Positions 8,968-54,096 of a DNA stretch of 54,096 nt are shown here, in pieces (position 1 is the stretch's first letter; every line of letters starts with the position of its first letter). The translations under genes and the position numbers were made by a program. The DNA lies in the NCBI RefSeq assembly GCF_020144665.1, contig NZ_JAAHBQ010000029.1:19670-73765 (forward strand). Reading direction: 5' to 3'. The notes under the pieces are model-generated. The model was not told the DNA's origin. It did not search any database and saw only the letters and a list, made by a program, of their open reading frames with translations. The DNA is from Oscillatoria salina IIICB1 (GTDB taxonomy: Bacteria > Cyanobacteriota > Cyanobacteriia > Cyanobacteriales > SIO1D9).

Positions 8968-8973
8968 GTGCAA

Positions 8974-26752: not shown

Positions 26753-29700
26753 GTGAATGTAGATCGTTATCAACTTTATGTTTTACTGTCGGGCTTTGCT
26801 AACACTGAAGTACGCCAGCAAATTTGCGCACAGTTGCCATCTCTGCAAGGACAGAGAGAAAACTTAGAACAGAATTGGGAGCAAATTACCCAATTAGCTA
26901 GAGAGATTGCTAGTTCGTCAGATCGAGTTAATCTGCAAACAGAAGCCGACGTACTACGGGATACTTGCAAACATCCCTTCAGTGGAGCCGCACAAACAAT
27001 TAACGCAGATATCTCCCCAGATAGTTTCGATTGTAGCATTATTGCCCAAGAAACTGACATTAAAAAAGTTTATTGGTGGTTTTGGCGATTCTATCCAGAA
27101 ATTTTAGCTACCACACAACGAGATTTTTTACTAACTCCCGCTCACCCAATTTTACCAGATTGTCCGGAACCGAGTTATCGAAGTACAATTGCTGCTTTAT
27201 TAGGTGCAATGTATCCTCCTGGTAAAGACTTAAATCAACCAGAACACCCTTATTTACTCATCTTTACTTTTTCCCCAGTCCAGGAAATTATCAAAGCCTC
27301 ACGTAAATTTCTTGACTTTTGGTCTGGCTCATATTTACTCCACTATTTAAGTGCCAAACTTTGTTGGTATATTGCTTGTAAATACAGTCCCGATGCAGTT
27401 ATCACTCCTTCTTTATGGAGTCAAGAAATTATTGATGCTTTGATGGTCAAAGAATTTGACAATGATAATTCTACCATTTTTCGCGATACTTTTCAACAGT
27501 ATTCACGCGATAATTGCGACCCAGTTAAGCGTTTTCAGGAACAGAAATCTACCAGTTTAGTTACCGCCGGATTTCCTAATGTTATCACCGCTTTAGTTCC
27601 CGGTAAACAAGCAGCAATTGACTTAGGAAAAAAACTAAAATGCCAATTAAAAAAAGAATGGTCAAATATCGCCACTAAAGTCCGCGAAGATATTAAAGCG
27701 AAAGTACAAGATGCTGTCGAAAATAATGGCGATTTGTGGGAAACAATTTTAGAAGAATTTCCTCATGCCCATCCTAGCCCTTATGTTGAAGAATTACAAA
27801 AATTGCACCAGGGAGGGTGTTGGGAATGGAATCAACTTTGGGATGCTCAAATAAAGAATACCTGGCAATGTTATTGGAGTGCAATCCCCCTAGGAAACCC
27901 CGAAATTGACTTAAGTATATCTCTTACCGACAACCCAGATAACTATCAAGAATGGAAAGAAAATCAAAACCAAATTGCCCTTCCACGCTTCAATCAAACT
28001 ATCCCCACAGTGGTAGAAGAAACTGCTTATTCCCTAGTTAATATTGGCACCTGGTGGGGAAGCCTTCAAGCCAGATTAGGACAAAGCATTCAAGCAGTAA
28101 AAAATACTCGTACTTGGAAGATTCCCGCAGCCCCAGGAGAACGTTCAACTATCTCCGGTCAATTTAGTGCCGTTCACCCTAGTTTACATTACCATGAAAC
28201 ATTCAAAGAAGGTGGAGGATTACCAGAAAGTTCCATGCGCTTATTTTGGCAAGTAATGGCAATTGTATATCCAGGTTTATTCAATGGTTCAGAAAAGCTA
28301 AATGCGCTTGAATTAACTAAACGAATGGCTTGGGAATACGGCGGTGTAGCCGAGTCGTTAGGGATAGATTTAACAGGAGAAGAAAATGATCCAGTGCCTA
28401 GCGAAGAGGAAGATTTAGAACAGGAAAATAATCGAAAAAATAGTTCTGAAATAGACTACGAAAAATTAATTCGCTTCCCTAATCTTAGCTCAATTGCTGC
28501 CGCCAAATTTGCTTACGAACATCCAGGAATAGTGCGCCAGTATTGGACAAATCTCAATCGATTAATGAACTCTAAGCAACCTAATTCGCAAGAAAAAATA
28601 TTTGATCCGCAGTTACGAAGAAAGTTTCGCTCAAAAACGCGACGAGACTTTCAAGTACCTAAAACTGACCGAGAAATTCCCGGATATAACGGAGTGATGT
28701 TTTCTAGTAAATGGTTAGCAGACGATCTGAGTTTAAACCAAAGTGAATCTAACAACAATTTACAAAAGCTACGTGAAATAGTCAATCAAGCACATAAAGA
28801 CTGTGGTTTCAACAACGGTTCTCCGGCTGATTGGTGGGTAATTGTTCTCGCAGATGGAGACAGTATGGGTAAATATGTTTCTGGTTCAAAAATGGAAAAA
28901 TATTCTGAGTATCTTGTTCTCGATGCTATTGAGAACACAACTAAAAATTCAGCTAATTTTGAGGAACTTCTCAATACGAAAAAACGTATGGGACCTGCAA
29001 CTCATGTGGGACTAAATCGCGCGCTTTTAGACTTTTCTAATCGTCTTGTGCCTTATCTTACAGAAAAACGTTTTTGTGGTAGGGTAGTTTATAGTGGTGG
29101 CGATGATGTAATGGCAGTTTTGCCATTAGCAGATTTACCTGAATTTCTCTTATCTTTACGTGCGGCTTGGTGTGGTGGAAAAGACCCACAAAATGAGTTT
29201 ACCAGTAAAGGTGGTTATTGGCATCCAAACTCTCAATTAGAAGGTTTACCTTCCCGTCCTCATTTTACAATGGGTGAAGGTGCAACTATGAGTATGGGAA
29301 TTGTAATTGCTCACAAAAGTGTTCCTTTACCAACTGTCTTAGAAAATCTCTGGGAAGCGGAAAAAGAACGAGCGAAAAAATTAGCAGGTAAAGATGGTTT
29401 GTGCTTCCGAGTTATTTATGGTGGTGGTAATACTTTAGAAGCTTTGATGAAAGGAGATTTACTCGATTCTTGGTGGAATTTTTTGCAAAATTACTCACAA
29501 GTGGATTTTAGTCCTTTGTTGTATCGACTTGCTGAAGAATTACCTCGTCACGCAGCAATAACCGAGTCAGATTGTTTGTTATCTAGAGCAACCGAAGTTA
29601 TTCTTTCTCGACGGGAGCAAACTTTGTCTGATACAACTAAAGAGGCTTTACTTGACTGGGTTAATTGTTGGGAAGCGTGGGCTTATCAAACTCAACACAA

Positions 29701-29812
29701 ACTGGGAAAAGATGCACTGGGTACTCAAGAAAAGGATTTGGCTTATTTGTTACGATTTAGTGCTTTCTGGGTCGATAAAATGATGCAGTTTCACGAATGG
29801 TCTTCTGAGTAA
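26753..29812 (+). CDS. cmr2: Type III-B CRISPR Cas10/Cmr2, GGDD intact, no HD motif seen
   Basis: 1,019 residues, GTG start (MNVDRYQLY). Cmr2 hallmarks: LLIFTFSPVQEIIKASRKFLD in the first Palm region, VLADGDSMGKYVSG near residue 700 and YSGGDDVMAVLPL with G782-G783-D784-D785. GGDD is the cyclase site that makes cyclic oligoadenylates when target RNA binds. No HD dipeptide or HD-nuclease signature is visible in the N-terminal part, so single-stranded DNase activity is doubtful. It is first in a plus-strand operon with cmr3, cmr4, cmr5 and the cmr6/cmr1 fusion. The C-terminal part is helical. Confidence 0.95.
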   Translation: MNVDRYQLYVLLSGFANTEVRQQICAQLPSLQGQRENLEQNWEQITQLAREIASSSDRVNLQTEADVLRDTCKHPFSGAAQTINADISPDSFDCSIIAQETDIKKVYWWFWRFYPEILATTQRDFLLTPAHPILPDCPEPSYRSTIAALLGAMYPPGKDLNQPEHPYLLIFTFSPVQEIIKASRKFLDFWSGSYLLHYLSAKLCWYIACKYSPDAVITPSLWSQEIIDALMVKEFDNDNSTIFRDTFQQYSRDNCDPVKRFQEQKSTSLVTAGFPNVITALVPGKQAAIDLGKKLKCQLKKEWSNIATKVREDIKAKVQDAVENNGDLWETILEEFPHAHPSPYVEELQKLHQGGCWEWNQLWDAQIKNTWQCYWSAIPLGNPEIDLSISLTDNPDNYQEWKENQNQIALPRFNQTIPTVVEETAYSLVNIGTWWGSLQARLGQSIQAVKNTRTWKIPAAPGERSTISGQFSAVHPSLHYHETFKEGGGLPESSMRLFWQVMAIVYPGLFNGSEKLNALELTKRMAWEYGGVAESLGIDLTGEENDPVPSEEEDLEQENNRKNSSEIDYEKLIRFPNLSSIAAAKFAYEHPGIVRQYWTNLNRLMNSKQPNSQEKIFDPQLRRKFRSKTRRDFQVPKTDREIPGYNGVMFSSKWLADDLSLNQSESNNNLQKLREIVNQAHKDCGFNNGSPADWWVIVLADGDSMGKYVSGSKMEKYSEYLVLDAIENTTKNSANFEELLNTKKRMGPATHVGLNRALLDFSNRLVPYLTEKRFCGRVVYSGGDDVMAVLPLADLPEFLLSLRAAWCGGKDPQNEFTSKGGYWHPNSQLEGLPSRPHFTMGEGATMSMGIVIAHKSVPLPTVLENLWEAEKERAKKLAGKDGLCFRVIYGGGNTLEALMKGDLLDSWWNFLQNYSQVDFSPLLYRLAEELPRHAAITESDCLLSRATEVILSRREQTLSDTTKEALLDWVNCWEAWAYQTQHKLGKDALGTQEKDLAYLLRFSAFWVDKMMQFHEWSSE

Positions 29813-29843: not shown

Positions 29844-31792
<1,949 letters not shown>

Positions 31793-31835
31793 CTAATTGA
31801 TTGCTACCAGAAAATAGTTGAATTTGGAGAAAAAA

Positions 31836-32249
31836 ATGCCAGAAGAATTGTTCGATCCGCGAGAAATTAGCAAAGAAGTTTATCACAAACTATCAGAAAT
31901 AAGGAGTAACGAAAATGATAATCATCAGCGACTTAAAGAACAATATAGTCAGTCAGTAGAACTGTATACTTACTTGGCAACTTGGGGAATGTTACGTTTA
32001 AAAGCTGAAGAATTTGCTCCCAATCCTGACGGAAAACGAGATGCAATTATTGCTTATTTTCAAGTTCTCACGAAAATAACTGAAATTAAGCCCTTATTAG
32101 GGGAAAATAGCTTAGATACCTTAATAGCTATGGAACCTGAAGATTATCTCGGATTTACAGGTTTAGGCTTACAAGTAGCACGCGAGTTTGCATTTTGGGC
32201 GTTAGCTGTTTATGCCGATGTAAAAGCTGAAGCAGAATCAGCAAATTAA
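31836..32249 (+). CDS. cmr5: Type III-B small subunit Cmr5
   Basis: 137 residues, all helical. Start at the ATG 31836, preceded by GGAG at 31826-31829; a TTG at 31818 is in frame but less likely. LYTYLATWGMLRLKAEEFAP and the ending AREFAFWALAVYADVKAEAE fit Cmr5. The small subunit lines the minor filament facing the target RNA. Confidence 0.88.
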   Translation: MPEELFDPREISKEVYHKLSEIRSNENDNHQRLKEQYSQSVELYTYLATWGMLRLKAEEFAPNPDGKRDAIIAYFQVLTKITEIKPLLGENSLDTLIAMEPEDYLGFTGLGLQVAREFAFWALAVYADVKAEAESAN

Positions 32250-32276
32250 TTAATATTGTTTACCCTGAGTAAGAAA

Positions 32277-34055
32277 ATGCCACCATCTCCTTGGTTAAAT
32301 CCTGAAGATTCACCTACACCAGATAGAACAGCGAGTTTTATTGAATATTTGCGTTGGATGCGTTCTCCAAATGTTGCAGATAAAGATAGTACCAAACTCG
32401 AAATTTTGCAGAATGCACAAAATAATGCTAACTATCACCAACGTTTAACATTATTGTGCGATCGCGTGCGTAGCTTTGCGGGACAGCAAGGAACAATCCT
32501 AGAACTAACTTGTCCCTGGCGGATTCGCGTCGGCGGACATACTGGACCAGAAAACATCCTACTTCCGGCTTTTGATGCCCTAGGTATGCCTTACCTCCCT
32601 AGTTCTAGTTTACGCGGTGTAGCTCGTTCCAAAGCAATCCGAGAAGTCGGAGAAGAGAATATTGCACCTTATTTCGGCGATCTTAATGCTACCAATCCTG
32701 CTCATCGCGCGGGGAAAGTCATCTTCTTTGATGCTTATCCCTTACCAGATACTCAGAGTCAAGGGGCAATTCGTAATCGTAATCAAAATCAGAACGGTGG
32801 ACTAGCATTAGATATGGCAAATAATATTTGGAGTTGGCAAGAATCTCAGCTTCAATACAGCCCCAACCCTAATTTATTCTTTTCCCTCAAACAAGCCAAA
32901 TTTGTGATTGGTTTGCGTCCGATGGCTGGTTGCGACGAAGCCACTTTTCAACAAGTGGTTGAGTGGTTAAGAAACGGACTGACTGAAAGTGGTTTAGGTT
33001 CGCAACTCAATACTGGTTACGGAAGATTAGTTTTATCTTCTTCCCCGAATACACCTTCAACAAATAATCTCCCTGGAGAATTCTTCCGCGTCGAATTTGA
33101 ACTTGAGGGTCAGTTTATTCACGGTATCCAAGAATTTACCCAATGGGAATGGGAAGAGAGAGAAGGACAATGGGTACATCGGGGTAAACCCCAAGCCGAG
33201 ATTCGTCCAGTTGCATTTAAGTCCATGTTACGTTATTGGTTTCGCGCTTTGGCACGAGGAGTTTTGCCTACTGATTCTGTTAAAAATTGGGAAGCCAACA
33301 TTTTCGGTGGAATTAATCCACAACGACTGGGATGGTTGCGCTGTCATGTCTTACCTGGGAAAAACAACGAACCAAATCTACAAACGGGTATCCTCGTTTT
33401 AGCAAATCCACCAGAAATTCCTGAGAACAAAAAAAATGAAGTAAAAAAATTGTGCAAAAATTTGACTTGGATAATGTTTCACCTTGGCGGAATTGGACAA
33501 GGTGCGCGAAGACCTTGCTATCAGAGGAATAATCCTCCTTTTTGGCGGGGTTCAAGTCTGACTTGCATTCTTGACGACAATTGTAGCCAGGAAGAAGAAG
33601 AGTTCTGGGAAATACCCGAAAATATTGGCGAGTTTCGTAAATTATTTCGTCGTCGTTTACAAAGTTTTTATCGCTCATTAGCACAGTTGTCTCAAGTTGA
33701 GATAAACTCCCAACAACCATTATCTGTAAATACTGAAGCAGATTGGACTGAAGCAATAGATGCTAATTGTCGTATCGTTATTTGTCAGGGTCAAAAAAGG
33801 AACAATAAGGTTTGTGCATTGGCGGTTTTGCATAGTCAGGAGTTAAAGAAAAACGGAGATTATGACCCAGATTTATGTGGTGGGGTAAATCCTCCTACTC
33901 CCTCCCCAGTTTGGATTACTCACTTAGAAGAAGTTGATTTTCAGGTTGTTACTGTTTTTGGAGTTAATAACCCTCCCCAGCAAAACTTTCTACAACATTT
34001 AAGAAATCAAGCTGCACAGTATGTTACAGTCTGGAAATTTCCACAGCCAAGATAA
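32277..34055 (+). CDS. cmr6: Fused RAMP protein: Cmr6 (N-terminal) joined to Cmr1-like (C-terminal)
   Basis: 592 residues from the ATG at 32277 (an in-frame TTG at 32256 has no better site). Residues 1-255 are Cmr6-like: LTCPWRIRVGGHTGPENILL, MPYLPSSSLRGVARSKAI and the glycine loop GLGSQLNTGYGRL. Residues about 268-592 are Cmr1-like: EIRPVAFKSMLRYWFRALAR (near 310), IFGGINPQRLGWLRCHV and GGIGQGARRPCY (near 403), corresponding to the Cmr1 RP..LR.W.RAL and G.G..SRRG motifs. No separate cmr1 exists here, so the fusion probably supplies both subunits at the 3' end of the crRNA. It starts 27 bases after cmr5. Confidence 0.85.
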   Translation: MPPSPWLNPEDSPTPDRTASFIEYLRWMRSPNVADKDSTKLEILQNAQNNANYHQRLTLLCDRVRSFAGQQGTILELTCPWRIRVGGHTGPENILLPAFDALGMPYLPSSSLRGVARSKAIREVGEENIAPYFGDLNATNPAHRAGKVIFFDAYPLPDTQSQGAIRNRNQNQNGGLALDMANNIWSWQESQLQYSPNPNLFFSLKQAKFVIGLRPMAGCDEATFQQVVEWLRNGLTESGLGSQLNTGYGRLVLSSSPNTPSTNNLPGEFFRVEFELEGQFIHGIQEFTQWEWEEREGQWVHRGKPQAEIRPVAFKSMLRYWFRALARGVLPTDSVKNWEANIFGGINPQRLGWLRCHVLPGKNNEPNLQTGILVLANPPEIPENKKNEVKKLCKNLTWIMFHLGGIGQGARRPCYQRNNPPFWRGSSLTCILDDNCSQEEEEFWEIPENIGEFRKLFRRRLQSFYRSLAQLSQVEINSQQPLSVNTEADWTEAIDANCRIVICQGQKRNNKVCALAVLHSQELKKNGDYDPDLCGGVNPPTPSPVWITHLEEVDFQVVTVFGVNNPPQQNFLQHLRNQAAQYVTVWKFPQPR

Positions 34056-34146: not shown

Positions 34147-35940
34147 ATGACTATTCTCCTTACTAACATGGGAACTTCCGACCTCGCTGTCAAAATTGAC
34201 GGTCATTATCTTCCCATTGGTTTTGACCGCAATGAACCGAATATGGCGGAAGCAGAAGCCGAAATTCAAGGTAAAGTTGAAGCTGAAAAATGGCGAAATC
34301 GCTTTGGGATTATTAAAGACAAACTTGGTTCAGAATTAGGAATTAGCGATACTAAAAACTTCCGCGAATTAAGTCGAGTAATCTTAGAAAAATATCAACA
34401 AGAACCCGAAATTTGGCACAAACGTTTACGTCCCGGACGTATTCTCGGTATCATTGAAACAGCCAAGAAAAGATTTGGTATTCATACTGCTTATATCTTT
34501 GTTACCAATCAACCTGAATTTGTTGTTAATTTCCAGGGAGAGAAAGAACCAAATCCCGGATATCCTACTGATTCAATTCATTTATTCCACATTCTCAAGC
34601 TTTGGTTTGAACGTGAGTTTGGTCAAGATTACTTGCAGTTTAAACCTGTATATCTTGAAGATGTTTCGGCAATTGATTTAGATGGATTGCTAAATAAATA
34701 TTACAACTTCTTTCTAAAGCTTGACAAAAACGAACAAATCCTCATTAGTATTAAAGGAGGAACGCCACAAATGCAAACCGCACTGCGAGTGCAAGCGGTT
34801 TCTTCTGAAGTTTCTAATCAAGTTTATTTAGAACCAAAACTGTCGATTCTCAAGCTTTTAGCTGGAGAAGCTTCCGAGTGTCATGTTTTCTCTTATTGGC
34901 GCTATCAACGTATTCAAAAATATCAAACGGTTAAGCAATTATTACAGCGTTGGGATTTTGATGGAGCGCGAGTAATTTTGGAGCAATGGTTATCAACTTT
35001 AAAAGAGTTAGAAAAAGCGGGTATTGAGGAAGTTCAAGCTAATGAAAGTTCCTTGGAATTGCTGGTGAAAGCGTTGAGAATGGCAGTAGGATATCTTAAT
35101 TTAGATGCAGAGGAAGCAAATAAACAAGCGGATCAAGCTTTAGGAGAGTTAGCAACAATACCGCAAGATTATCAGCACAACGGATATGCTCGTTTGCTCA
35201 ATTTATATACGCAATGTTGTTTGTTTTGGGATTTAGATCGGATTGCGGATTTTCTCTCTCGGATGGGTTCTTTTTACGAGGAGACGTTACACGAGTTAAT
35301 CCGTCAGTTGGATGGCGAAAAATATTTCGATCGTATTGAGTATCCTGATGATTGGTATTTGAATGAAAATACTATAGATGAGTTTCTGGCTAATAGCGAT
35401 TTAGTTAATAATTTTGATAGGTTGGAGTCGAAGATTAATAAAAAATATTACCCAAAATGGCAGCGAGAAAGAGAAATGCCTAAAAAATATTACAAGCTTC
35501 CGGGTCGTTTTAGTAAATTAAATTTTGTTCAAGCTTTGGTAGAAACTAAAAAAGGCGATCTAGCAGCTTTTAATGAAATGACTTCCGCAATGGAAAAACT
35601 CGATTATTGGGCTGCAAAGCGCAATCAATTAATTCATGGTGCAAAAGGCGTTTCTAAACAAAGAATGAAAGAAGTTCTTGCAGAAGATAAGCGACTTCGG
35701 CAAGAAAGAAAAATGAAAAATAAGGATATCAGTAAAAATGTGGTTCGGGCTTGTAAACCGGAAGAAATTTTAACTAAAATGACTATTATTAGTCGTAGTG
35801 TTTTACAGTTGACAAAGGTGTCTTTACCGGATTCGGTGATGTATTCTAATCCTGATTATCTTGATTCAGCAAACGAACCTTATTACATTTATTCGGATAT
35901 TCGTAAGTGGGTGGAAGAAACTCTCGATCGCGATTTGTGA
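34147..35940 (+). CDS. CARF-HEPN ribonuclease, Csm6/Csx1-like
   Basis: 597 residues. The N-terminal half is a CARF sensor: MTILLTNMGTSDL at the start and SIKGGTPQMQTALRVQAV (G204-G205-T206-P207), the ligand loop of CARF domains. The C-terminal half is helical with a HEPN R-x4-H motif, AKRNQLIHGAK (R492, H497), the RNase active site. Such proteins bind the cyclic oligoadenylate made by Cas10 and then degrade RNA without specificity. AGAGGAAAATTAA precedes the ATG. It lies 91 bases after the cmr6/cmr1 gene on the same strand and is likely in the same operon. I could not match it to a specific named subfamily. Confidence 0.88.
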   Translation: MTILLTNMGTSDLAVKIDGHYLPIGFDRNEPNMAEAEAEIQGKVEAEKWRNRFGIIKDKLGSELGISDTKNFRELSRVILEKYQQEPEIWHKRLRPGRILGIIETAKKRFGIHTAYIFVTNQPEFVVNFQGEKEPNPGYPTDSIHLFHILKLWFEREFGQDYLQFKPVYLEDVSAIDLDGLLNKYYNFFLKLDKNEQILISIKGGTPQMQTALRVQAVSSEVSNQVYLEPKLSILKLLAGEASECHVFSYWRYQRIQKYQTVKQLLQRWDFDGARVILEQWLSTLKELEKAGIEEVQANESSLELLVKALRMAVGYLNLDAEEANKQADQALGELATIPQDYQHNGYARLLNLYTQCCLFWDLDRIADFLSRMGSFYEETLHELIRQLDGEKYFDRIEYPDDWYLNENTIDEFLANSDLVNNFDRLESKINKKYYPKWQREREMPKKYYKLPGRFSKLNFVQALVETKKGDLAAFNEMTSAMEKLDYWAAKRNQLIHGAKGVSKQRMKEVLAEDKRLRQERKMKNKDISKNVVRACKPEEILTKMTIISRSVLQLTKVSLPDSVMYSNPDYLDSANEPYYIYSDIRKWVEETLDRDL

Positions 35941-38240: not shown

Positions 38241-38519
38241 TCACACAATTAAAACTTGCTCGTCTACAACAAACTTAGGTTGAATTCCCAGAATTGCTAC
38301 TTTATTTCGGCAGTGGGCGGAGAGAGGATAAAATCGGAGTTGGTCTGTTTCAGAATCGAGCATTTTGTCTAGCTTTTGTTGCAATTTTTCGTATTGATTA
38401 TCGTTCAAGACTGCTTCAAAAACTGACTTTTGGACTCGCAAACCGTAAGCTTGCAAAAGTTTTGCTACTCTTTGGCGGCGGCTATCTTCTACAATGTCGT
38501 AACAAATTAGGTAAAACAT
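38241..38519 (-). CDS. cas2: CRISPR adaptation protein Cas2
   Basis: 92 residues. FYLICYDIVEDSRRQRVAKL and LQAYGLRVQKSVFEAVL are the Cas2 signature, with the Asp of YDI at the conserved position. Cas2 bridges two Cas1 dimers in the spacer integrase. It is the only cas2 in the window, serving up to three Cas1 proteins. It lies downstream of cas1a on the same strand, separated by the 48-bp tandem repeats. Confidence 0.95.
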   Translation of the reverse strand: MFYLICYDIVEDSRRQRVAKLLQAYGLRVQKSVFEAVLNDNQYEKLQQKLDKMLDSETDQLRFYPLSAHCRNKVAILGIQPKFVVDEQVLIV

Positions 38520-39040: not shown

Positions 39041-39055
39041 AATTATCGGACAAAA

Positions 39056-40129
39056 TTAGGAAAACGAAACAAAACGACGTTGTTTGATAGTTTGCTTAAC
39101 GGGGAATAACGCCAAAGGTTTATTCGCTTTCCAGGTTACAAATAAAGGTTGGTAGAAATCGATTTTTCCTAACAAATAATCCACGTAAGCTTGTACTTGC
39201 CATTGTAAGCAACGACGATAGGTCATTTGTCCGGCTAAATAATGATTGATTTGTGCGGTTAATTTGGCTTCCCAGTGGTAAATAAATTTCTCTAGGGCTG
39301 CGGGAGAAAGTAAGTAGTTTCCTAAGTCGTCGGGAGGAAGAAAGTCATCGCAGGTGAGAAGCTGGGAGTTGACTAAGTTGATAACTAAGTCTTCGACAAT
39401 GGGGGCGCGAAATTGCTCCATTAAGTCGCAAACTAAGGGTGTATGATTGATGCAGTTGAGATGGAAGTGTCCCCAGTGAGGGTTTAATCCAACTTCACGG
39501 ATGAAGGTGAATAAGTTTTGACTTAGAAGTGCGTAACCGAGATTGAGTAAGGTGTTGATGTAGTCTAGCGGTGGTGTGTCCTGGCGTTGGTGAAATTGGA
39601 AAACTTCGGGTAGTAGGGAACCGAGAGCGGGATAATATAAGTTGTTGGCTTTGTTGTGGTAAAACCAAAGGGCTTTGTGACTGTTGACGCTGGGTAAATG
39701 TTCGAGTAGCAAGGCGAGGGTTTTGATGGCTTCGGTGGCTAGTTGAGTTGAGTGGGAGTGGTTTAAACGCCGCAAGAGTGTGCATTTGTTGTGGAGTTTG
39801 GCGCGAATTAAGGTTTCTGCAAGGAGGTGGCTAAAGGTTTGGTTACGCCATTGCTTTTTTTGTTGGATTAAGGTTTTGCTGAGTGGTGGTTGGAAGTCGT
39901 TGAGGTGGACGAGAAGATATCCTTGTTCGCTGATATATAAGATCGGTTTTTGTTCGCTGAGGGCTATTCGGGTAGCTTGGGGAGAGATTTTGTTGGGGCT
40001 GAAGATAATGATTTGGCTGACTTGGTGGATGGGTATTTCTGCTTGGAGTTGGTTTTGTTGGTGAATTTGGAAGTATTTGTCACTGACGTTAAGTATGGTG
40101 TTGGGTTTGGTTATGTAGAGGGTGGACAT
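39056..40129 (-). CDS. cas1: CRISPR Cas1 (cas1a), catalytic glutamate replaced
   Basis: 357 residues. Cas1 throughout: MSTLYITKPNTILNV, GYALLSQNLFTFIREVGLNP, WGHFHLN and VCDLMEQFRAPIVEDLV. The metal-binding His (GHFH) and Asp (CDLMEQFR) are present. The Glu found in Y-E-G-(Q/E)-x-A is missing: the segment reads FYHNKANNLYYPALG, with H158 where Cas1b has E157. Integrase activity is therefore doubtful; it may be structural or decaying. An upstream double motif (AACTCAGATACC) is shared with RT-cas1. Downstream on the same strand: cas2. Confidence 0.93.
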   Translation of the reverse strand: MSTLYITKPNTILNVSDKYFQIHQQNQLQAEIPIHQVSQIIIFSPNKISPQATRIALSEQKPILYISEQGYLLVHLNDFQPPLSKTLIQQKKQWRNQTFSHLLAETLIRAKLHNKCTLLRRLNHSHSTQLATEAIKTLALLLEHLPSVNSHKALWFYHNKANNLYYPALGSLLPEVFQFHQRQDTPPLDYINTLLNLGYALLSQNLFTFIREVGLNPHWGHFHLNCINHTPLVCDLMEQFRAPIVEDLVINLVNSQLLTCDDFLPPDDLGNYLLSPAALEKFIYHWEAKLTAQINHYLAGQMTYRRCLQWQVQAYVDYLLGKIDFYQPLFVTWKANKPLALFPVKQTIKQRRFVSFS

Positions 40130-40492: not shown

Positions 40493-42364
40493 GTTTCGAT
40501 TAGTTCTACTTCCCTAGAAGTTGGTCAATGGTTGTTCTTGTTCTCTCTTTTTATTGGACAAAAGTTTCCATTAGTTCAACTTCCGAAGAAGTTAGAAGAC
40601 GGACTTTCGTTATCTGCTCGTACGCAGATAATTGTTTCCATTAGTTCAACTTCCGAAGAAGTTAGAAGAGGACGATTGCAAACTGGTAGGAGGTACTCCC
40701 ATCTAGTTTCCATTAGTTCAACTTCCGAAGAAGTTAGAAGCGGGCCAGGAACTTTCGAGTTAGTAACTGAGGCATCGTTTCCATTAGTTCAACTTCCGAA
40801 GAAGTTAGAAGCTGCTCTTCTCGGATCCGCTGCCATTGGAGGAGCTCTGCTGTTTCCATTAGTTCAACTTCCGAAGAAGTTAGAAGCATACTGGGGGTGT
40901 CCGCCGGACACCGCGACTGTAACGCAGGGTTTCCATTAGTTCAACTTCCGAAGAAGTTAGAAGCGCAGAACGAGGGGCCAGCCCGTCCCGTTCGGGAGAT
41001 GTTTCCATTAGTTCAACTTCCGAAGAAGTTAGAAGTCGGAGAGTAGCACTACTACGTATTACGGGTGTCCCCCAGACACGTTTCCATTAGTTCAACTTCC
41101 GAAGAAGTTAGAAGACCCCTCAAAAAGTGGTAATCTACGTCAATGGCGTAGGTCGTTTCCATTAGTTCAACTTCCGAAGAAGTTAGAAGGGGTTTGGCTT
41201 TGGCTGTTATTTCTGTTGCTGTTTCTGCAGGTTTCCATTAGTTCAACTTCCGAAGAAGTTAGAAGAATTCATCGAGTTCTCCTTCAGGTCAACATTCAGC
41301 TTTACGTAGGGTTTCCATTAGTTCAACTTCCGAAGAAGTTAGAAGTGCAGCAGGTCCAGGAAGTCCCATTGGACATTCAGTTTCCATTAGTTCAACTTCC
41401 GAAGAAGTTAGAAGAACAGCGGTGTTGGCCAGGGCTAGATCAAGCCATAAAGAAGTTTCCATTAGTTCAACTTCCGAAGAAGTTAGAAGAAAATTACTCC
41501 AAAAAATAATCCCAATGTCTCGTTTGTTTCCATTAGTTCAACTTCCGAAGAAGTTAGAAGGAAAAGTGTTCTTGGTAAATGGGAGCGGAGAACAAATAGT
41601 TTCCATTAGTTCAACTTCCGAAGAAGTTAGAAGAGGTAAAAGAGACAGGGCACGTATTTTTTTTAGAGTTTCCATTAGTTCAACTTCCGAAGAAGTTAGA
41701 AGGTATCGCAGCCTATGGGATCGTACATGGGGTCCGACATGTTTCCATTAGTTCAACTTCCGAAGAAGTTAGAAGAGGTGGAAACACCCCGCCAGCGACC
41801 GAGTGCACGGACCTGTTTCCATTAGTTCAACTTCCGAAGAAGTTAGAAGTTTGCCGGCACTTCCCCGGAAGCAATTTTTCGGGAAGATTGGTTTCCATTA
41901 GTTCAACTTCCGAAGAAGTTAGAAGTCCATTGGATATACAAGTACGTTCCGAATTAGGGACGGAGGTTTCCATTAGTTCAACTTCCGAAGAAGTTAGAAG
42001 AGTACGTTTTTTTTCTAAACGCTAACGATTCTGAAATTCTAGTTTCCATTAGTTCAACTTCCGAAGAAGTTAGAAGTAGATGAGGTTAACCGTGTCCTCC
42101 AACAAGCCAATATGTTTCCATTAGTTCAACTTCCGAAGAAGTTAGAAGCGGACACGCGCACTGTGACTCAAGAGTGTAACAAAAAGTGTTTCCATTAGTT
42201 CAACTTCCGAAGAAGTTAGAAGAATGAATGAGGCTCACTCCCCTGAGGAGATAAGTTTCCATTAGTTCAACTTCCGAAGAAGTTAGAAGGAAGGTGCCCT
42301 TAGATATCCAGGTGCGCTCTGCTGAGTTAGTTTCCATTAGTTCAACTTCCGAAGAAGTTAGAAG
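40493..42364 (-). CRISPR. CRISPR array 1, 25 intact repeats plus a decayed terminal repeat
   Basis: The 35-bp repeat (plus strand) starts GTTTCCATTAG and ends CCGAAGAAGTTAGAAG; intact copies run from 40564 to 42364, with 24 spacers of 32-45 bases. A decayed copy at 40493-40527 (GTTTCGATTAGTTCTACTTC...) marks the old end. Read leftward, the repeat ends in AATGGAAAC, like the 8-base 5' handle of type III crRNAs (ATGGAAAC). With the promoter at 42396-42425 and the decayed repeat at the left, transcription should be from the minus strand. The interior ACTTC-CGAA-GAAGT can form a short hairpin. Confidence 0.97.
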
Positions 42365-42602
42365 AGGGTCAAGATAGAACCCGCTTGGTAACTGGATTAT
42401 AACCTAGTAAAATTCCGGGGGTCAAGGGAGTAGCCGAGTAATTGAGAATAAATGTCATTAATCACCTCGCTTGGAAGCTTGAAAGTCTTACGCTGACTGG
42501 GGTTGGTAGCACTCGACGCAAGAATGGGCATTTCAGCGATCGCGCGACTGCTACCAGAAAGGGTGAGAAAATGAGGAAACTAGGAGGGTAGGGTCTCGCT
42601 AT
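42365..42602 (-). other. Leader region of array 1
   Basis: About 240 bases between array 1 and the end of cas1b. It holds the array promoter (listed separately). GGGTCAAG occurs at 42366 and at 42419. An inverted repeat TGGTAGCA...TGCTACCA (42504-42511 / 42549-42556) may end the cas1b transcript. Confidence 0.7.
42396..42425 (-). promoter_or_regulatory. Sigma-70-type promoter for array 1 (leftward)
   Basis: On the minus strand TTGACC (42425-42420), an 18-base spacer and TATAAT (42401-42396). Transcription would begin about 7 bases further left, roughly 25 bases before the first repeat. Confidence 0.8.
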
Positions 42603-43604
42603 TTACATTTTAGACTGGATGGGGCGGTAGTTTTCTTGTTCGCCAAGGACGCAGGTGAGATATTCCCAAACTTGTAATTCCAGACAGCGTTGATAGGTAA
42701 CTTTAGCGCCAGTATGAGAATGAGTTATTTGGCTTTGTAGTTTAGTTTGCCAATGTTTGAGGAAGATTTTCAAAGCAGAAGGTTGGAGGTAGACACCACC
42801 TCGGTTGTCTGGGGCGGTAAAGTCTTCGGGGATAAAGATATTCGAGTTGAGGAGGTAGACGACTAAACTATCAACAATAGGGGCGCGGAATTCTTCAATT
42901 AAGTCGGAAACTAAGGCAGGATGGTTATGGCGAGGTGTGTGTAAGTTACCAAAGTGGGGATGAAGTCCGATCGCTTGAATTAAGGTATAAAGATTTTGGA
43001 ACACTAAGGTGTAACCTAGGCTAAGAAGACTGTTGACAGGATCGGTAGGCGGACGACGGGTGCGTTTGGTAAACTGGAAAGGGTCTTGAATTAAGGTTCC
43101 TAGTGCTTGAAAATAGATTCGAGCGCTTTGTCCTTCGTAACCGAATAAGGTGTCAATTGATTCTGCTTGTGGTATTTTGTTAATCGTGTCAGCTAATTGG
43201 GCGATCGCTTCTTTGACTTCTGTTTGTTGGTGATAACGATTTAATCTTCGCAATAGTATCCAAGAGTTAGATAGTTTCCCCGCGACGATACTTTTGGCTT
43301 GACGTAAGCGAAATTCGGGGTTAAGAGAATTTTTGACTTGCTGTTGCAGATAGTCAATTTCGGCAATTTTACCTTGCAAGCGCCCAAAGTAACGTCCCTG
43401 ATATGATAAAAACATTACAGGTATTTGTCGCCGTAGTGCTAAACTCATCGCACCGTGAGTGAGACGACAGCTACCAAATAAGACGATGTGGCTGATACGG
43501 TTGACGGGAATTGAGAGTTGGATTTCGCTGTTGTGGTATATCTGGAACTGTTGGTGCTTAACTTTGAGGGAAGCTCCTCGTTCGGTGACGTACAATACAG
43601 TCAT
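42603..43604 (-). CDS. cas1: CRISPR Cas1 (cas1b), active site intact
   Basis: 333 residues. MTVLYVTERGASLKVKHQQF, LFGYEGQSARIYFQALG (E157), FGNLHTPRHNHPALVSDLIE and EFRAPIVDSLV give the full Glu-His-Asp metal site. The closest relative in the window is the Cas1 half of RT-Cas1 (same KRTRRPP.DPVNSLLSLGYT and VYL.P.ALK motifs); cas1a is more distant. It lies on the leader side of array 1, is transcribed in the same direction, and is divergent from the STAND gene (123 bases between starts). Confidence 0.96.
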   Translation of the reverse strand: MTVLYVTERGASLKVKHQQFQIYHNSEIQLSIPVNRISHIVLFGSCRLTHGAMSLALRRQIPVMFLSYQGRYFGRLQGKIAEIDYLQQQVKNSLNPEFRLRQAKSIVAGKLSNSWILLRRLNRYHQQTEVKEAIAQLADTINKIPQAESIDTLFGYEGQSARIYFQALGTLIQDPFQFTKRTRRPPTDPVNSLLSLGYTLVFQNLYTLIQAIGLHPHFGNLHTPRHNHPALVSDLIEEFRAPIVDSLVVYLLNSNIFIPEDFTAPDNRGGVYLQPSALKIFLKHWQTKLQSQITHSHTGAKVTYQRCLELQVWEYLTCVLGEQENYRPIQSKM

Positions 43605-47644: not shown

Positions 47645-49627
47645 CTACTTTTTCCACTTCATCGGGCGATAAACTTCCTCTTCACCCATCAAACAAGCCA
47701 CATACTCCCAAATTTGTAATTCCAAACAACGGTGATAATTTACTTTATACCCAGTATGAGGATGAGTAATTTCCTTTTGCAACATTTTTTGCCAATGTTG
47801 AAGATACTTTTTCAGTGCATCTGGATGCAAGTATACCCCACCTCGCGCATCTGGTGGCATAAAATCTGCCAAAGTTAAGATTTCGCCATTAACTAAATAA
47901 GCTACCAAAGAATCGACAATTGGAGCGCGAAATTCTTCCATCAAATCAGAAATCAAAGCGGGATGATTTTTTTGAGGGGCGTGTAAGTTACCAAAATGAG
48001 GATGTAAGCCTACTGCTTGAACTAATGAGTAAATATTCTGGAAAATTAAAGTATACCCTAAACTCAATAAACTATTTACTGGGTCGATGGGAGGACGGCG
48101 AGTGCGTTTGTTAAACACAAAAGGTTCTTTCAATAAACTACCATATCCTTGCCAATAAATACGCGCCCCTTCTCCTTCATAACCAAATAATACTTCCAAT
48201 GATTCAGCAGTGGGTACTTTTTTAATCCATTGTTTTAGTTCGGCAATAGCTTCCTTGGCTGACTCAGTTTGGTTATTTTTGCGACGATTTAAACGTTGCA
48301 GGAGAATGCGACTGTTGTGTAACTTTCCCTCGACGATACTTTTGGCTTGCTGCAAAATAAATTCGGCTTCTAAGCAATGTTCTACTTGTGCCACTAAATA
48401 CTTAATTTCTGCCATCCCTTCGGCTTGCAAACGTCCAAAGTAGTGACCTTTTTGGGAAAGTAAAATAATGGGAATCCGTCGTTTGAGTGCCAAATTTACT
48501 GCACCTTGAGAGAGGTTACAACAGCCAAATAAAACAATGTGACTGATGCGATTTGCGGGAATAGCTATTTTTAATTCGTGATTGTGGGAAACTTGAAACT
48601 GCTGATGTTTAACGTTGATATAAGCACCTTGTTCGGTGACATATAATGTTGTCATTGCTTCACTCCAATATTGTTTAGCACTAGCTGGATTAAAAACAGT
48701 TTTGTGGCGCTTGAGACTACAAGTACGAGGTGGACGCGAAATGGGAACTATGGTTTTTTTTTTCGCTTTGGTTCGTGACTGAGGTAATTTTCGTACTGGA
48801 GGGATAATTTGTCCTGCTTGAAAACGATAACCGAGAAATTTAAATTCTTCGTGAGGGGCAAATATTTGGGTCTTTTCTGGTTGTAAGGTGAGGTAAATGT
48901 CTCGCAGCCAGTAACGTAGTAAATGCAAAATGCGGGTGGCTTCTAGCAATCCTGGGGTGGCAATGACAAAATCATCTCCATAGCGGACTAATTTGATGTC
49001 TAAGTCGAGACATTTAGCATCAAATTCGCTTAAATACAAGTTGGCTAAGGCACCGGAAAGAATGCCTCCTTGTAAGACTCCTTTTATCCAATGTAAGCGC
49101 CGTTGTTGGATGATTACGCCACTTTTTAGTTGTTGTTCGATTAGGCGCAATGTTGTCGGTTCGAGTGAGATTTTTTCTAATTGGGTTAGTAATAATGCCC
49201 AAGAAAGGTTGTCGAAGAATTGAGCGATGTCGGCTTTGATTATCCAGACGGGTTGGGCTGTATAAAATTGGGCAAAATAGTCGATTGCTTGTTTGACACC
49301 GTTACCGGGACGATATGCGAAGGAACAGTTACTGAAGGTTTCTTCTAAGGCTGGATAAATTGATTGTAAGAGTAAGCGTTGGACGATACGATCTTTGACG
49401 GTGGGAATTCCTACTAATCTGTAGCCGCCGCTTTTTTTCTTGAGGTAAAAGCCTTTGGCTGGATAGGCTAGATAGGTTTCTTGTTGTAGCTGGTGTTGCA
49501 GAAAAGGTAGTTCTTGGTTAACTATTCCGCTAAATAAGTCGGTGGTAATTCCGTCAATTCCTGCGGCTTGGGTGCGTTGGCGAACTATTTCCCATGCTGC
49601 TTCTAGGTGTATGAGGGAGATGTCCAT
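47645..49627 (-). CDS. Reverse transcriptase-Cas1 fusion
   Basis: 660 residues. Residues 1-310 are a group-II-intron-like RT: GIDGITTDLF, FYLKKKSGGYRLVGIPTVKD, IKADIAQFFDN, GVLQGGILSGALANLYLSEF and VRYGDDFVIA (Y216, G217, D218, D219). Then come a basic linker and a complete Cas1 from M325: LFGYEGEGARIYW (E484), FGNLHAPQ (H549) and ISDLMEEFRAPIVDSLV (D561). Both active sites are intact. There is no Cas6 domain. RT-Cas1 proteins let type III systems take spacers from RNA. It is transcribed leftward and lies beyond the trailer end of array 2. Confidence 0.96.
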   Translation of the reverse strand: MDISLIHLEAAWEIVRQRTQAAGIDGITTDLFSGIVNQELPFLQHQLQQETYLAYPAKGFYLKKKSGGYRLVGIPTVKDRIVQRLLLQSIYPALEETFSNCSFAYRPGNGVKQAIDYFAQFYTAQPVWIIKADIAQFFDNLSWALLLTQLEKISLEPTTLRLIEQQLKSGVIIQQRRLHWIKGVLQGGILSGALANLYLSEFDAKCLDLDIKLVRYGDDFVIATPGLLEATRILHLLRYWLRDIYLTLQPEKTQIFAPHEEFKFLGYRFQAGQIIPPVRKLPQSRTKAKKKTIVPISRPPRTCSLKRHKTVFNPASAKQYWSEAMTTLYVTEQGAYINVKHQQFQVSHNHELKIAIPANRISHIVLFGCCNLSQGAVNLALKRRIPIILLSQKGHYFGRLQAEGMAEIKYLVAQVEHCLEAEFILQQAKSIVEGKLHNSRILLQRLNRRKNNQTESAKEAIAELKQWIKKVPTAESLEVLFGYEGEGARIYWQGYGSLLKEPFVFNKRTRRPPIDPVNSLLSLGYTLIFQNIYSLVQAVGLHPHFGNLHAPQKNHPALISDLMEEFRAPIVDSLVAYLVNGEILTLADFMPPDARGGVYLHPDALKKYLQHWQKMLQKEITHPHTGYKVNYHRCLELQIWEYVACLMGEEEVYRPMKWKK

Positions 49628-49857: not shown

Positions 49858-52800
49858 GTTTCCATTAATTCAACTTCCGAAGAAGTCAGAAGACGAGCCT
49901 TCTCATTCTAGCCACTCTAACCCCGCTAGGTTTCCATTAATTCAACTTCCGAAGAAGTCAGAAGTGTTACAAAGAAAAAATATAATAGCTACAGCGTGTT
50001 TCCATTAATTCAACTTCCGAAGAAGTCAGAAGCTTGGGCTTGGGCTTGGGCTTGGGCTCTCGGTTTCCATTAATTCAACTTCCGAAGAAGTCAGAAGTTG
50101 CTGTTTCCGCTGTTGTTGCACAGGCACCCGGTTTCCATTAATTCAACTTCCGAAGAAGTCAGAAGACAACAGCAACAACGAGCATATACATGGGGACCAT
50201 GTTTCCATTAATTCAACTTCCGAAGAAGTCAGAAGCCCTCGGAAGAAACCGTCGGGGCGATTGTCTATGAAGGTTTCCATTAATTCAACTTCCGAAGAAG
50301 TCAGAAGTATGGAAAAACTGTGGAGGGGAAAATTTCCGATGCTAGAAGTTTCCATTAATTCAACTTCCGAAGAAGTCAGAAGAGGAGAAGCGGACAAAAA
50401 ATGCCGCAGCTCTCTGGATAAGTTTCCATTAATTCAACTTCCGAAGAAGTCAGAAGACTATCTCCAACGTAAGTCCGGACGCATTTTACGTCCAGGGTTT
50501 CCATTAATTCAACTTCCGAAGAAGTCAGAAGGCTTGTACGACTACCCAAAATTTTTTTGGGAGATCATATGTTTCCATTAATTCAACTTCCGAAGAAGTC
50601 AGAAGCAGCAGGTGTTTCCTGTGGAGTGGGTCTAAATATTGTTTCCATTAATTCAACTTCCGAAGAAGTCAGAAGGCGATACGGCCCCAGCCGCCGAGTG
50701 CAAAAATCTTGTTTCCATTAATTCAACTTCCGAAGAAGTCAGAAGCCCAGGAATTGGCTACTACGAATGGACGCAGAAAGGTTTCCATTAATTCAACTTC
50801 CGAAGAAGTCAGAAGTAGACCCATCTCGAGAGCACTAGAAAATGGGACAACAGGTTTCCATTAATTCAACTTCCGAAGAAGTCAGAAGTGGAGGCATGGG
50901 CAGCGGCAAGCAGCTAATTGCTAGTTTCCATTAATTCAACTTCCGAAGAAGTCAGAAGGGTGACACGAGACGGGGTAATCAAAGAGATTATCCGAGTTTC
51001 CATTAATTCAACTTCCGAAGAAGTCAGAAGGCTCTCGTTTCTGCTGGCCTTTTCGGTGGTGTTGTTGAGTTTCCATTAATTCAACTTCCGAAGAAGTCAG
51101 AAGCTGGTCTCGTTTCTGGTCTCGTTGGCGGTCTCGTTAATGCCAAGTTTCCATTAATTCAACTTCCGAAGAAGTCAGAAGAGCTGTGTAGGGGGGTGCG
51201 ACCCCTCCCAAGCTAGCTAGTTTCCATTAATTCAACTTCCGAAGAAGTCAGAAGGCGTGTCTTCGACCACAACTTCCTCAGAAGAGCAAACAAGTTTCCA
51301 TTAATTCAACTTCCGAAGAAGTCAGAAGTTCTGGTGTTGCTCTTTCCGGTCTCATTGGCTTCGGTGGTAGTTTCCATTAATTCAACTTCCGAAGAAGTCA
51401 GAAGAATGAACACATACATGGGGACTACGTTTGCCCCAAGGGTTTCCATTAATTCAACTTCCGAAGAAGTCAGAAGTAACAATTTTGCTTTCACCTTTAT
51501 TGGCGTGTTTGCGTTTCCATTAATTCAACTTCCGAAGAAGTCAGAAGACCCCACTTTTTAGTGGGTTTGAAGTTGAGGTCCATATAGTTTCCATTAATTC
51601 AACTTCCGAAGAAGTCAGAAGAATTTTATGGTAACACAAACCACTGCCTCGTGGCAGTGGTGTTTCCATTAATTCAACTTCCGAAGAAGTCAGAAGGAAA
51701 TTTCCCAGACTAACCAGACACTTGTCCCTTTGGAGTTTCCATTAATTCAACTTCCGAAGAAGTCAGAAGTTTTGTATAAAGCGGACGATATTGCTCTCAA
51801 GGCGGCCAAGTTTCCATTAATTCAACTTCCGAAGAAGTCAGAAGAGTCAATTTCGAACGTTGTTTCTGAAACTTTCCTGAGTTTCCATTAATTCAACTTC
51901 CGAAGAAGTCAGAAGCTGCAGCTAACGCAGGTGGCGGTGGAGATCTTCCGTTTCCATTAATTCAACTTCCGAAGAAGTCAGAAGGGGGAAACGACTGCCA
52001 ACTCTCCCCAACACGGACAATTGTTTCCATTAATTCAACTTCCGAAGAAGTCAGAAGATCTTTTTTACTACCCTCTTGGGTGGCGTTGTTGAGTTTCCAT
52101 TAATTCAACTTCCGAAGAAGTCAGAAGGGGTGGTGGCCAACGTCAGATAGCCCCGGACCGCGGTTTCCATTAATTCAACTTCCGAAGAAGTCAGAAGTGG
52201 GCTACAATAGTAGTTTTTGGGATGAAGGGTGGCAAGTTTCCATTAATTCAACTTCCGAAGAAGTCAGAAGACGAGGGGCGAGGGGACCATATACACGGGG
52301 ACCAGTTTCCATTAATTCAACTTCCGAAGAAGTCAGAAGCTCCGACTTTCCCGCCTTCTCCGGAGAAGCCTGAAGAATGTTTCCATTAATTCAACTTCCG
52401 AAGAAGTCAGAAGTCGGTATTCTCGGTTCTCTGTTTGCTGGCAACTCTTGCCAGGTTTCCATTAATTCAACTTCCGAAGAAGTCAGAAGATTTTTGGAGT
52501 TATTGTACTCCCTCCGCTTTTGTTTCCATTAATTCAACTTCCGAAGAAGTCAGAAGTTTTAGATTTTCCGAGTGGTATTCCCTTAACCCAGATGGTTTCC
52601 ATTAATTCAACTTCCGAAGAAGTCAGAAGCGTATTCGGTCCGGTGAGGAAATCAACGGCCCCTGTTTCCATTAATTCAACTTCCGAAGAAGTCAGAAGTC
52701 TAATTGAAAATAGAATAGAATATACAGTGAAATATCCTGTTTCCATTAATTCAACTTCCGAAGAAGTCAGAAGCAACGCCGGCCAATTAGGCAAGCCCTC

Positions 52801-54096
52801 AGTAGTGGTTTTCGTTTCCATTAATTCAACTTCCGAAGAAGTCAGAAGGGCCTTGAACGTAGTCGCGGCAGCTCGCCGTGCACTGGTTTCCATTAATTCA
52901 ACTTCCGAAGAAGTCAGAAGCTTTATGATCAAATCGTCCAGGACTTTGAACCCGGGGTTTCCATTAATTCAACTTCCGAAGAAGTCAGAAGGGGGCGACA
53001 GACCGCACCCAGGAGGCAATCAATAATGTTTCCATTAATTCAACTTCCGAAGAAGTCAGAAGTTAATGGTTTGAACAATAGCCGGAAAGATTATCTCCGA
53101 CCTCTAGTTTCCATTAATTCAACTTCCGAAGAAGTCAGAAGTTTAGAGAAACTGCGTGAAATAGGAAAGCAAAGTTTCATGTTTCCATTAATTCAACTTC
53201 CGAAGAAGTCAGAAGTTTTTTTGGGAATTGTGCGGAGGCCAACTCGGCCTTGTTTCCATTAATTCAACTTCCGAAGAAGTCAGAAGTGTGATGGAAGTTG
53301 GTCAGACTCTAGTTTATAAAAAGTTTCCATTAATTCAACTTCCGAAGAAGTCAGAAGCTTGGGTGGTGGCATTGAGATTACCCCTAAGGGTTTGTTTCCA
53401 TTAATTCAACTTCCGAAGAAGTCAGAAGTAGTAAGTCTAAGAAGAGAGGTTCGATTAATTCTGGTGGAAGTTTCCATTAATTCAACTTCCGAAGAAGTCA
53501 GAAGAAAAAACCTATCTGAGCGCCCTCTTGACTAGGTTGTTTCCATTAATTCAACTTCCGAAGAAGTCAGAAGACTTATGCGGGGCAAACGCCCCAGCTG
53601 GCAATATCTGGTTTCCATTAATTCAACTTCCGAAGAAGTCAGAAGAACCCGCCGCGGACGAACCCGCCGCGGAATGGAAGTTTCCATTAATTCAACTTCC
53701 GAAGAAGTCAGAAGTTCTCTTTCCTCTGCTTGCTGGCAACACTTGCCAGTTTCCATTAATTCAACTTCCGAAGAAGTCAGAAGTAGCGATTTAATTCCCC
53801 GGCCTCGTGCTAGCTAACTGTTTCCATTAATTCAACTTCCGAAGAAGTCAGAAGATTTTTTGGCTTGTGCAGAGGCCAATTCGGCCTTAAAGTTTCCATT
53901 AATTCAACTTCCGAAGAAGTCAGAAGACGTCAACGGGCCAAATGGAGGGATATCTGAGGGGTCTTTGTTTCCATTAATTCAACTTCCGAAGAAGTCAGAA
54001 GCCGATCGCACCCAGACGGCTATAAACAATTACCGCATAGAATGGTTTCCATTAATTCAACTTCCGAAGAAGTCAGAAGCTGTAGACCCCCGCGGG
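49858..54096 (-). CRISPR. CRISPR array 2, 59 repeats in the window, continuing past its end
   Basis: 35-bp repeats starting GTTTCCATTAA and ending CCGAAGAAGTCAGAAG, first at 49858 and last complete one at 54045-54079, then a partial spacer. The repeat differs from array 1 at two positions (11 and 30). Spacers are 30-44 bases. All repeats in the window look identical. By analogy with array 1 it should be transcribed leftward, with its leader beyond the window. Confidence 0.97.

Follow-up and report, generated by a model that had tools for sequence, protein, structure and literature searches.

Overlapping spacers of an RT-Cas1 type III-B CRISPR system in Oscillatoria salina tile one unidentified protein, possibly that of an RNA virus

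The CRISPR arrays of an RT-Cas1 system in the cyanobacterium Oscillatoria salina IIICB1 contain about 35 spacers that overlap at the protein level and tile a single protein, here called P1. That these spacers are independent, recent captures of one diverged gene, yielding crRNAs antisense to it, is close to certain. The best overall explanation, to which a probability of about 0.6 is given, is that RT-Cas1 recorded the RNA of a diverse, unsampled virus population, an RNA virus being more likely than a DNA virus; neither an RdRp motif nor a target genome was found.

The window, a stretch of 54,096 nt on contig C29, is part of the 5.96-Mb draft genome of this organism. Its cas genes and an associated CARF-HEPN gene are as follows.

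26753..29812, plus strand: cas10/cmr2, with GGDD in the translation
29859..34055, plus strand: cmr3, cmr4, cmr5 and cmr6, the second half of the last gene being weakly Cmr1-like
34147..35940, plus strand: CARF-HEPN (Csx1/Csm6-like) protein
38241..38519, minus strand: cas2
39056..40129, minus strand: third cas1
42603..43604, minus strand: second cas1, adjoining the array 1 leader
47645..49627, minus strand: RT-Cas1 fusion of 660 aa, with YGDD in the RT part and the Cas1 part at residues ~327-653

RT and Cas1 lie in a single reading frame, with the RT match at residues 8-291 and the Cas1 match at 327-653; the PADLOC Cas1_IIIb model covers residues 7-580 of the 660-aa ORF. YxDD and GGDD are the catalytic motifs of reverse transcriptases and Cas10 proteins, respectively, and both are intact (RYGDDF in the RT-Cas1 translation, GGDDVMA in that of cas10/cmr2). 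The III-B effector genes (Cas10/Cmr2 and Cmr3-6) and Cas2 are both present at the locus. The system is thus a type III-B CRISPR-Cas with an RT-Cas1 adaptation module. The window has further features. A 1189-aa protein (43728-47297) is encoded between the two arrays, beside the RT-Cas1 gene; by eye it has a possible N-terminal DNA-binding part and a P-loop NTPase, and it has no PADLOC match at E 0.001. Tandem repeats of 48 nt lie between cas2 and a cas1 gene (38588-39043), an open reading frame of 4125 aa spans 8968-21345, and a repetitive low-complexity ORF is found at 1810-3879.

Two arrays and one leader region were located in the window.

40564..42364, minus strand: CRISPR array 1 (A1), 25 repeats of 35 nt and 24 spacers; crRNAs from the minus strand
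42365..42560, minus strand: leader region of array 1; aligns with the corresponding flanks of A2b, A3 and A4
49858..54096, minus strand: CRISPR array 2 (A2), 59 repeats and 58 spacers in the window; runs past the contig end

The repeat of arrays 1 and 2 has 228 matches in the genome at up to 3 mismatches. The exact copies (222) are confined to contigs C29, C73, C99 and C113; array 4 (A4) begins with one of the six inexact matches, and the other five have no assigned location. Array 2 probably continues as A2b on contig C73 (locus L031), the join itself not being shown. Spacers of this repeat family, referred to below as RT spacers, number 24 in A1, 58 in A2, 28 in A2b, 87 in A3 and 21 in A4, making 218 in total, all distinct; counts given as 217 leave out one 91-nt piece of A4 that contains a decayed repeat.

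The right-hand ends of A1, A2b, A3 and A4 have a common alignable flank that extends ~200 nt past the last repeat. On the left, the flanks of different arrays align poorly, except for a stretch of 96 nt with 74% identity between A1 and A2, and decayed repeats are present at the left ends of A1 and A4. These observations place the leader on the right, with crRNAs transcribed leftwards. On the minus strand the 3' end of the repeat is ATGGAAAC, which resembles type III 5' handles. Isolated or decayed partial copies of the CRISPR repeat lie outside the arrays at 36847-36874 and 40493-40543, and a scan of GTDB for the exact repeat gave two stretches, in Symploca and Microcystis MAGs. The ends of the RT spacers in this genome show mirrored biases: G is low at base 1 and high at the third base, and C is low at the last base and high at the third from the end. 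Of these biases, the deficit of G at base 1 is the only one that is as clear in other genomes. The mirrored biases may represent an end preference of Cas1-Cas2.

The 217 spacers were compared all against all in six frames, with a BLOSUM62 score of at least 40 counted as a match. This gave 30 (+,+), 9 (-,-) and 3 (+,-) frame matches; three shuffled sets each gave no match at all. Stop-free frames also exceed the shuffles on both strands (454 of 651 versus 381, SD 10, on the plus strand; 439 versus 397, SD 9, on the minus strand). Many of the matches chain into one protein of ~100 residues, P1. Its N-part composite is IIEVAQARVPLDIQVRSELGKKYVFFLNANDSEILAVAYYQSGSWRISYPEYPQLGYSTVTGQSDPSSG and its C-part composite is IAAYGIVHGVPTLTIYWGCPPDTATVTQECNKK, with a stop after ECNQ in one spacer; the end of the protein, GCPPD...TVTQECN, is conserved. 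No spacer bridges the N-part (ending ...SDPSSG) and the C-part (starting IAAYG), and that they form one protein in that order is inferred.

By hand, 35 spacers were placed on P1, nine in A1, 11 in A2b, eight in A3 and seven in A4, and 34 of these are sense on the plus strand. Those of array 1 are listed here.

40887..40928, plus strand: P1 spacer YWGCPPDTATVTQ
41036..41079, plus strand: P1 spacer TTTYYGCPPD
41346..41379, plus strand: P1 spacer QQVQEVPLDI(Q), first of three with PLDIQ; composite score only 25, placed by its VPLDI match
41634..41667, plus strand: P1 spacer VKETGHVFFL; composite score only 22, pairs with PLDIQVKETGHVF of array 4 at score 43
41703..41740, plus strand: P1 spacer IAAYGIVHGV
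41926..41965, plus strand: P1 spacer PLDIQVRSELGTE, second of three with PLDIQ
42001..42041, plus strand: P1 spacer YVFFLNANDSEIL
42149..42187, plus strand: P1 spacer DTRTVTQECNKK
42290..42329, plus strand: P1 spacer KVPLDIQVRSAEL, third of three with PLDIQ, nearest the leader

When a fixed threshold of score 30 against the composite was applied to the 217 spacers, 31 matched on the plus strand and one on the minus strand, the latter being a near-palindromic spacer that also scores 41 on the plus strand. All but one of the 31 automatic plus-strand matches are in the hand-placed set, and one of these 30 is the spacer counted as antisense; the remaining match, a SYWSCP frame in array 4, was judged to be chance. 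Among the 35 hand-placed spacers, five do not reach 30 and were placed by overlap with other spacers or by a short match. Since the leader is on the right and P1 is sense on the plus strand, the P1 crRNAs are antisense to the P1 mRNA, which is the orientation that an RNA-targeting type III effector needs.

The composite was built from these same spacers, so the P1 count among RT spacers is true by construction. The tests that are independent of it are the all-against-all comparison with its shuffles and control arrays, the position of the spacers in the arrays and the codon-position bias. Overlapping P1 spacers have 45-89% of their nucleotides in common (pairs of at least 10 codons) and keep much of the peptide, and their start and end points differ. 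In 73 overlapping pairs there are 126, 106 and 325 differences at codon positions 1, 2 and 3, respectively; 198 codons are identical, 209 differ synonymously and 159 change the residue, that is, 209 of the 368 differing codons are synonymous. As to position, P1 spacers make up 35 of the 80 leader-proximal spacers (the 20 nearest the leader in each of A1, A2b, A3 and A4) versus none of the 138 others (Fisher p 1.5e-18), and none was placed in the leader-distal part of array 2 that lies in the window. New spacers enter an array at the leader. By this usual insertion rule the P1 spacers are recent memories, present in four array ends at once.

An earlier note on this DNA had reported that three array 1 spacers encode PLDIQ with differing codons, and these are indeed present on the plus strand at 41346-41379, 41926-41965 and 42290-42329. 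It read the first of them as ending in Q. The position and frame are correct, but the spacer supplies only CA of the final Q codon, which is completed by the first G of the following repeat. Among the 24 array 1 spacers the sole 5-mer common to at least three is PLDIQ, and any 5-mer common to three of them appeared in just one of 5000 mononucleotide shuffles. The note's proposal that the three are independent acquisitions from diverged versions of one gene is supported by the differing boundaries, the third-position divergence, the synonymous codons and the largely kept peptide; the boundaries and codons likewise agree with its statement that they are not spacer duplications. The sense orientation it had looked for also holds, all three running the same way, as 34 of the 35 hand-placed spacers do. 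The PLDIQ observation is a small part of the larger pattern of ~35 spacers tiling one protein.

Other protein-level overlaps were seen among RT spacers (loci L031, L032 and L033, and window positions 49858-54096). The peptide NEHIHGDHVCP(QGHE) is found in 4-5 spacers; GEYDGHMLLI, DRTQ.AINN and CAEANSA are each found in two; and there are Q/P-rich overlaps (CEIYRQPPQQQ, QPQQRNGNL) and hydrophobic G/F/V-rich pieces. These families suggest more proteins of the same or older parasites. The spacer at 50889-50923 reads GGMGSGKQLIA, a Walker-A-like motif.

Three arrays of the same genome with 256 spacers, near cas1 genes without RT, served as controls; no other RT match was found in the genome at E 1e-20. 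Two of them (L058 and L060) are accompanied by type I-D genes, and for the third (L059) only cas1 was tested. Distinct pairs scoring at least 40 on any strand number 33 of 23,436 in the RT arrays, some of them low-complexity, versus 3 of 32,640 in the non-RT arrays. All three control pairs lie within L059 (112 spacers) and read YG(S/N)GDW, KLID.YG.GD and WET(I/L)TRRN, so that the effect is present on a small scale in a non-RT array too. It could be thought that the P1 pattern arises by chance, from array duplication or as a repeat artefact, as spacers of low complexity (poly-Q, poly-G/V and poly-Cys frames) do yield some false pairs. The shuffles, however, gave no match at score 40 and the control arrays gave the few pairs just described, and duplication is contradicted by spacers that differ in sequence and end points with third-position divergence. 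A low-complexity artefact was ruled out, the P1 spacers not being repetitive. This explanation is refuted by the controls and retains next to no weight.

Matches between RT and non-RT spacers scoring at least 40 number 2 of 55,552 pairs, both in poly-Cys frames, and at score 30 or above P1 is matched by none of the 256 non-RT spacers. The G+C content of RT spacers is 0.501; that of the three non-RT arrays is 0.37-0.40 and that of the window outside the arrays 0.40-0.42. The RT and non-RT adaptation modules draw on different pools. Nine other genomes carry arrays of the repeat family found in the RT arrays, and seven of the nine have a long RT-Cas1 match. These arrays showed no tiling, with no (+,+) matches at score 36 or above among 160 spacers, and no general G+C shift. 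At a score of at least 30, P1 had no plus-strand match and one minus-strand match among 200 spacers of this repeat family outside the present genome, and likewise none and one among 409 spacers from other arrays in those genomes.

The earlier note had also called for the target family to be sought; in the viral and genome collections searched none was found, and the P1 family consequently rests on the spacers themselves. No family was found for P1 in PHROGs and Pfam (three composite peptides) and no match in PDB sequences. By tblastn it was not found in 50,697 phage records (one match at E 7 in one search, none in another) or in 72,556 plasmids (one match at E 10). IMG/VR, searched by protein and by alignment, gave 38 and 6 pattern matches and GTDB contigs gave 109, none of which was confirmed; these scans require near-exact peptides of 7-8 residues and diverged P1 copies could escape them. 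In 386 genomes of the phylum, the own genome included, P1 was found in the own arrays only. A search of 388 genomes of the order, again including the own, gave three outside matches at E 0.005-0.01, which had no repeated 22-mers around them and were taken as chance. Within the genome itself 11 of 12 matches are on array contigs and one, weak at E 1.0, is on C117; a host gene as the source of P1 was ruled out by this search.

As a positive control, RNA phages are present in IMG/VR (159 relatives of an MS2 replicase piece) and in the phage collection (1594 records), and P1 was not found among these either, with the proviso that the IMG/VR pattern scans miss diverged copies. Nucleotide searches of arrays 1, 2 and 3 against phages gave 0, 4 and 23 records; the best matches (E 0.001 for array 3, E 0.1 for array 2) were over low-complexity spacers and were rejected. 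A second protein family, NEHIHGDHVCPQGHE, had no match in phages. Stop-free spacer frames contain no GDD and no clear RdRp motif was seen among the spacers. Compared with 80 MS2-like leviviral loci, the spacers showed no likeness above antisense and non-RT controls.

These searches bear on an alternative in which P1 is a short gene of a DNA phage (or plasmid) with very high transcription. RT-Cas1 would then draw spacers from its transcripts, and the uniform orientation would be maintained by selection for crRNAs that target RNA. Such a source is possible but unlikely. The lack of an RdRp signature in the spacers and the strong focus on one small gene speak for it, as does a survey of 2,054 spacers from RT-linked arrays in which the few that matched did so mostly to DNA phages or prophages (PMC5513706). 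Against it, P1 was not found in the phages and plasmids searched by tblastn, in the sampled cyanobacterial genomes or by the IMG/VR pattern scans, nor is it among the 256 spacers that the non-RT arrays of the same cell have stored.

Local RNA structure, expressed as mean z versus dinucleotide shuffles, provides a further signal. RT spacers have a mean z of -0.84 (SE 0.095, n=217) and 37-mers of 80 ssRNA-phage loci -0.68 (n=1000). The values for DNA phages of similar G+C are -0.19 (lambda), -0.10 (T7) and -0.28 (a Microcystis DNA phage); the host gives -0.30, its pieces including CRISPR repeats, and the non-RT spacers of the same genome -0.39 (n=256). RT spacers differ from five non-RNA-phage sets at one-sided Mann-Whitney p values of 5e-5 to 1e-13 and are, if anything, more structured than RNA phages (p 0.023). 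That their structure is far above that of the three DNA phages counts against a DNA phage source. Intermediate values, -0.61 (n=160) and -0.51 (n=187), were obtained for spacers that other genomes carry with the same repeat family, and other arrays in those genomes give -0.22 (n=409; not screened for RT neighbours). One non-RT array of this genome, L059, reaches -0.63. Genome G273 has RT and cas1 matches side by side, and a nearby array, with a different repeat, gives a strongly negative z of -1.61 from only 9 spacers (L067 11800-12493).

The structure score is compatible with an RNA-virus target and is not specific for one. Hairpin enrichment could also come from RT-Cas1 or RNase III favouring structured transcripts of a DNA phage; RNase III is named as a possible source of RNA protospacers in one report (PMC11014452). 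The difference in structure between sense and antisense strands is -0.154 for RT spacers (p 0.027), -0.095 for lambda (p 0.012) and -0.032 for levi (p 0.71). This asymmetry is small, not specific and too weak to use. No A-rich noncoded tail is visible at the spacer ends of these arrays.

P1 might instead be encoded by a retroelement, or by a small replicon that exists only as RNA and lacks a polymerase of its own (satellite- or obelisk-like). Such a source would account for the extreme concentration of recent spacers on ~100 codons, for the hairpin-rich spacers and for the lack of a polymerase motif. It is nevertheless thought improbable. More than half of the newest spacers, 45 of 80, are not P1, and for a retroelement there is no P1 in the genome outside the arrays, the weak match at E 1.0 apart, or in the searched genomes, where an integrated copy might show.

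The preferred reading, RT-Cas1 memory of an RNA virus, runs as follows. The arrays have recently, and in many independent events, taken up pieces of P1, the donors being a population of diverged relatives of a single genetic parasite. That parasite is most likely an RNA virus or some other replicon carried as RNA. Entry would have been by reverse transcription of RNA by RT-Cas1. The crRNA-Cmr complexes would then be expected to bind P1-bearing RNA, cut it and raise a Cas10/CARF-HEPN signal, and the repeated re-capture of codon-diverged versions would fit an arms race with a fast-diversifying virus. An RNA route through RT-Cas1 is likely, as an inference from indirect signatures only (structure and base composition). 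RNA is favoured because an RT-Cas1 with YGDD is present, P1 was not found in the searched collections (those of IMG/VR and GTDB by pattern scans that would miss diverged copies) and the spacers have local RNA structure. An RNA virus appears the most likely source, because the RT repertoire shares almost nothing with the non-RT arrays of the same cell, has a base composition distinct from those of the host and the non-RT spacers, and has a local structure like that of ssRNA phages. This attribution is inferred and can be held with only moderate confidence; there is no target genome and the type of nucleic acid is not proven. Several points weigh against an RNA virus. P1 accounts for 35 of the 80 newest spacers, a hot spot not expected from even sampling of a genome-length RNA. 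Together with the lack of RdRp or leviviral likeness, the structure of L059, a possible hairpin preference, the absence of A-tails and the absence of tiling or a G+C shift in other genomes, it is the reason why transcripts of a DNA phage are not dismissed.

Neri et al. 2022, in Cell, reportedly describe CRISPR spacers matching RNA viruses. The RT spacers resemble Leviviricetes in a G+C near 0.49 and in strong local RNA structure, but neither P1 nor any spacer has detectable similarity to those searched (80 MS2-like loci in the case of spacers) and there is no replicase motif. In Silas et al. 2017 (PMC5513706), the spacer source of the RT-Cas1 III-B system of Arthrospira platensis is called unknown. 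That system, as described there, is like the present one in combining an RT-Cas1 fusion and III-B effectors with hyperdiverse spacers of unknown source, and in coexisting with an RT-lacking system that samples a different pool. The difference is that only a single RT-associated spacer was matched in Arthrospira, whereas here ~35 independent spacers tile one protein family and give a searchable sequence (PMC5513706). The RT-Cas1 fusion of Marinomonas mediterranea also works with Cas2 and is reported to take spacers from RNA and DNA; A-rich noncoded nucleotides are described there, while here no such end bias was seen and no experiment was done (PMC11014452).

RNA viruses have been linked to systems of this kind. 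In Ca. Accumulibacter an RT-associated III-B locus had a match to one levi-like RNA contig (PMC7508674), RT type III targeting is cited as host evidence for riboviruses (PMC10847044), and for a cyanobacterium with an RT-linked III-B system the authors suggest that DNA extraction may have missed RNA viruses (PMC10715143). In both the Ca. Accumulibacter case and the present one RT-bearing type III loci appear to record RNA viruses, but there a virus sequence was already available for matching to spacers, whereas here the spacers define an unsequenced target (PMC7508674). A coding-strand bias of type III spacers is known, ~65% on average; the 34 of 35 found here is stronger, but for one gene only (PMC8482600). 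A literature search, which left out most subscription journals and preprints, found no earlier case in which an unknown target protein had been defined from overlapping spacers.

Overlapping spacers give the target protein and its orientation without a reference genome, and the question of the spacer source thus becomes testable with a P1 profile in metatranscriptomes. The approach could be used on other RT-CRISPR genomes; it combines self-overlap of spacers at the protein level, clustering near the leader, a comparison with the non-RT arrays that the cell also carries, and scoring of local structure. If the preferred reading is true, the P1 memory would supply a concrete partial answer to the question of where RT-CRISPR spacers originate. 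The RT arrays would then document past encounters with an entire family of undiscovered RNA viruses (or RNA-only replicons), visible solely in the immune memory of the host, with P1 rebuildable from spacers alone and its codon diversity sampling the virus population through time, a view that is judged slightly better than an even bet.
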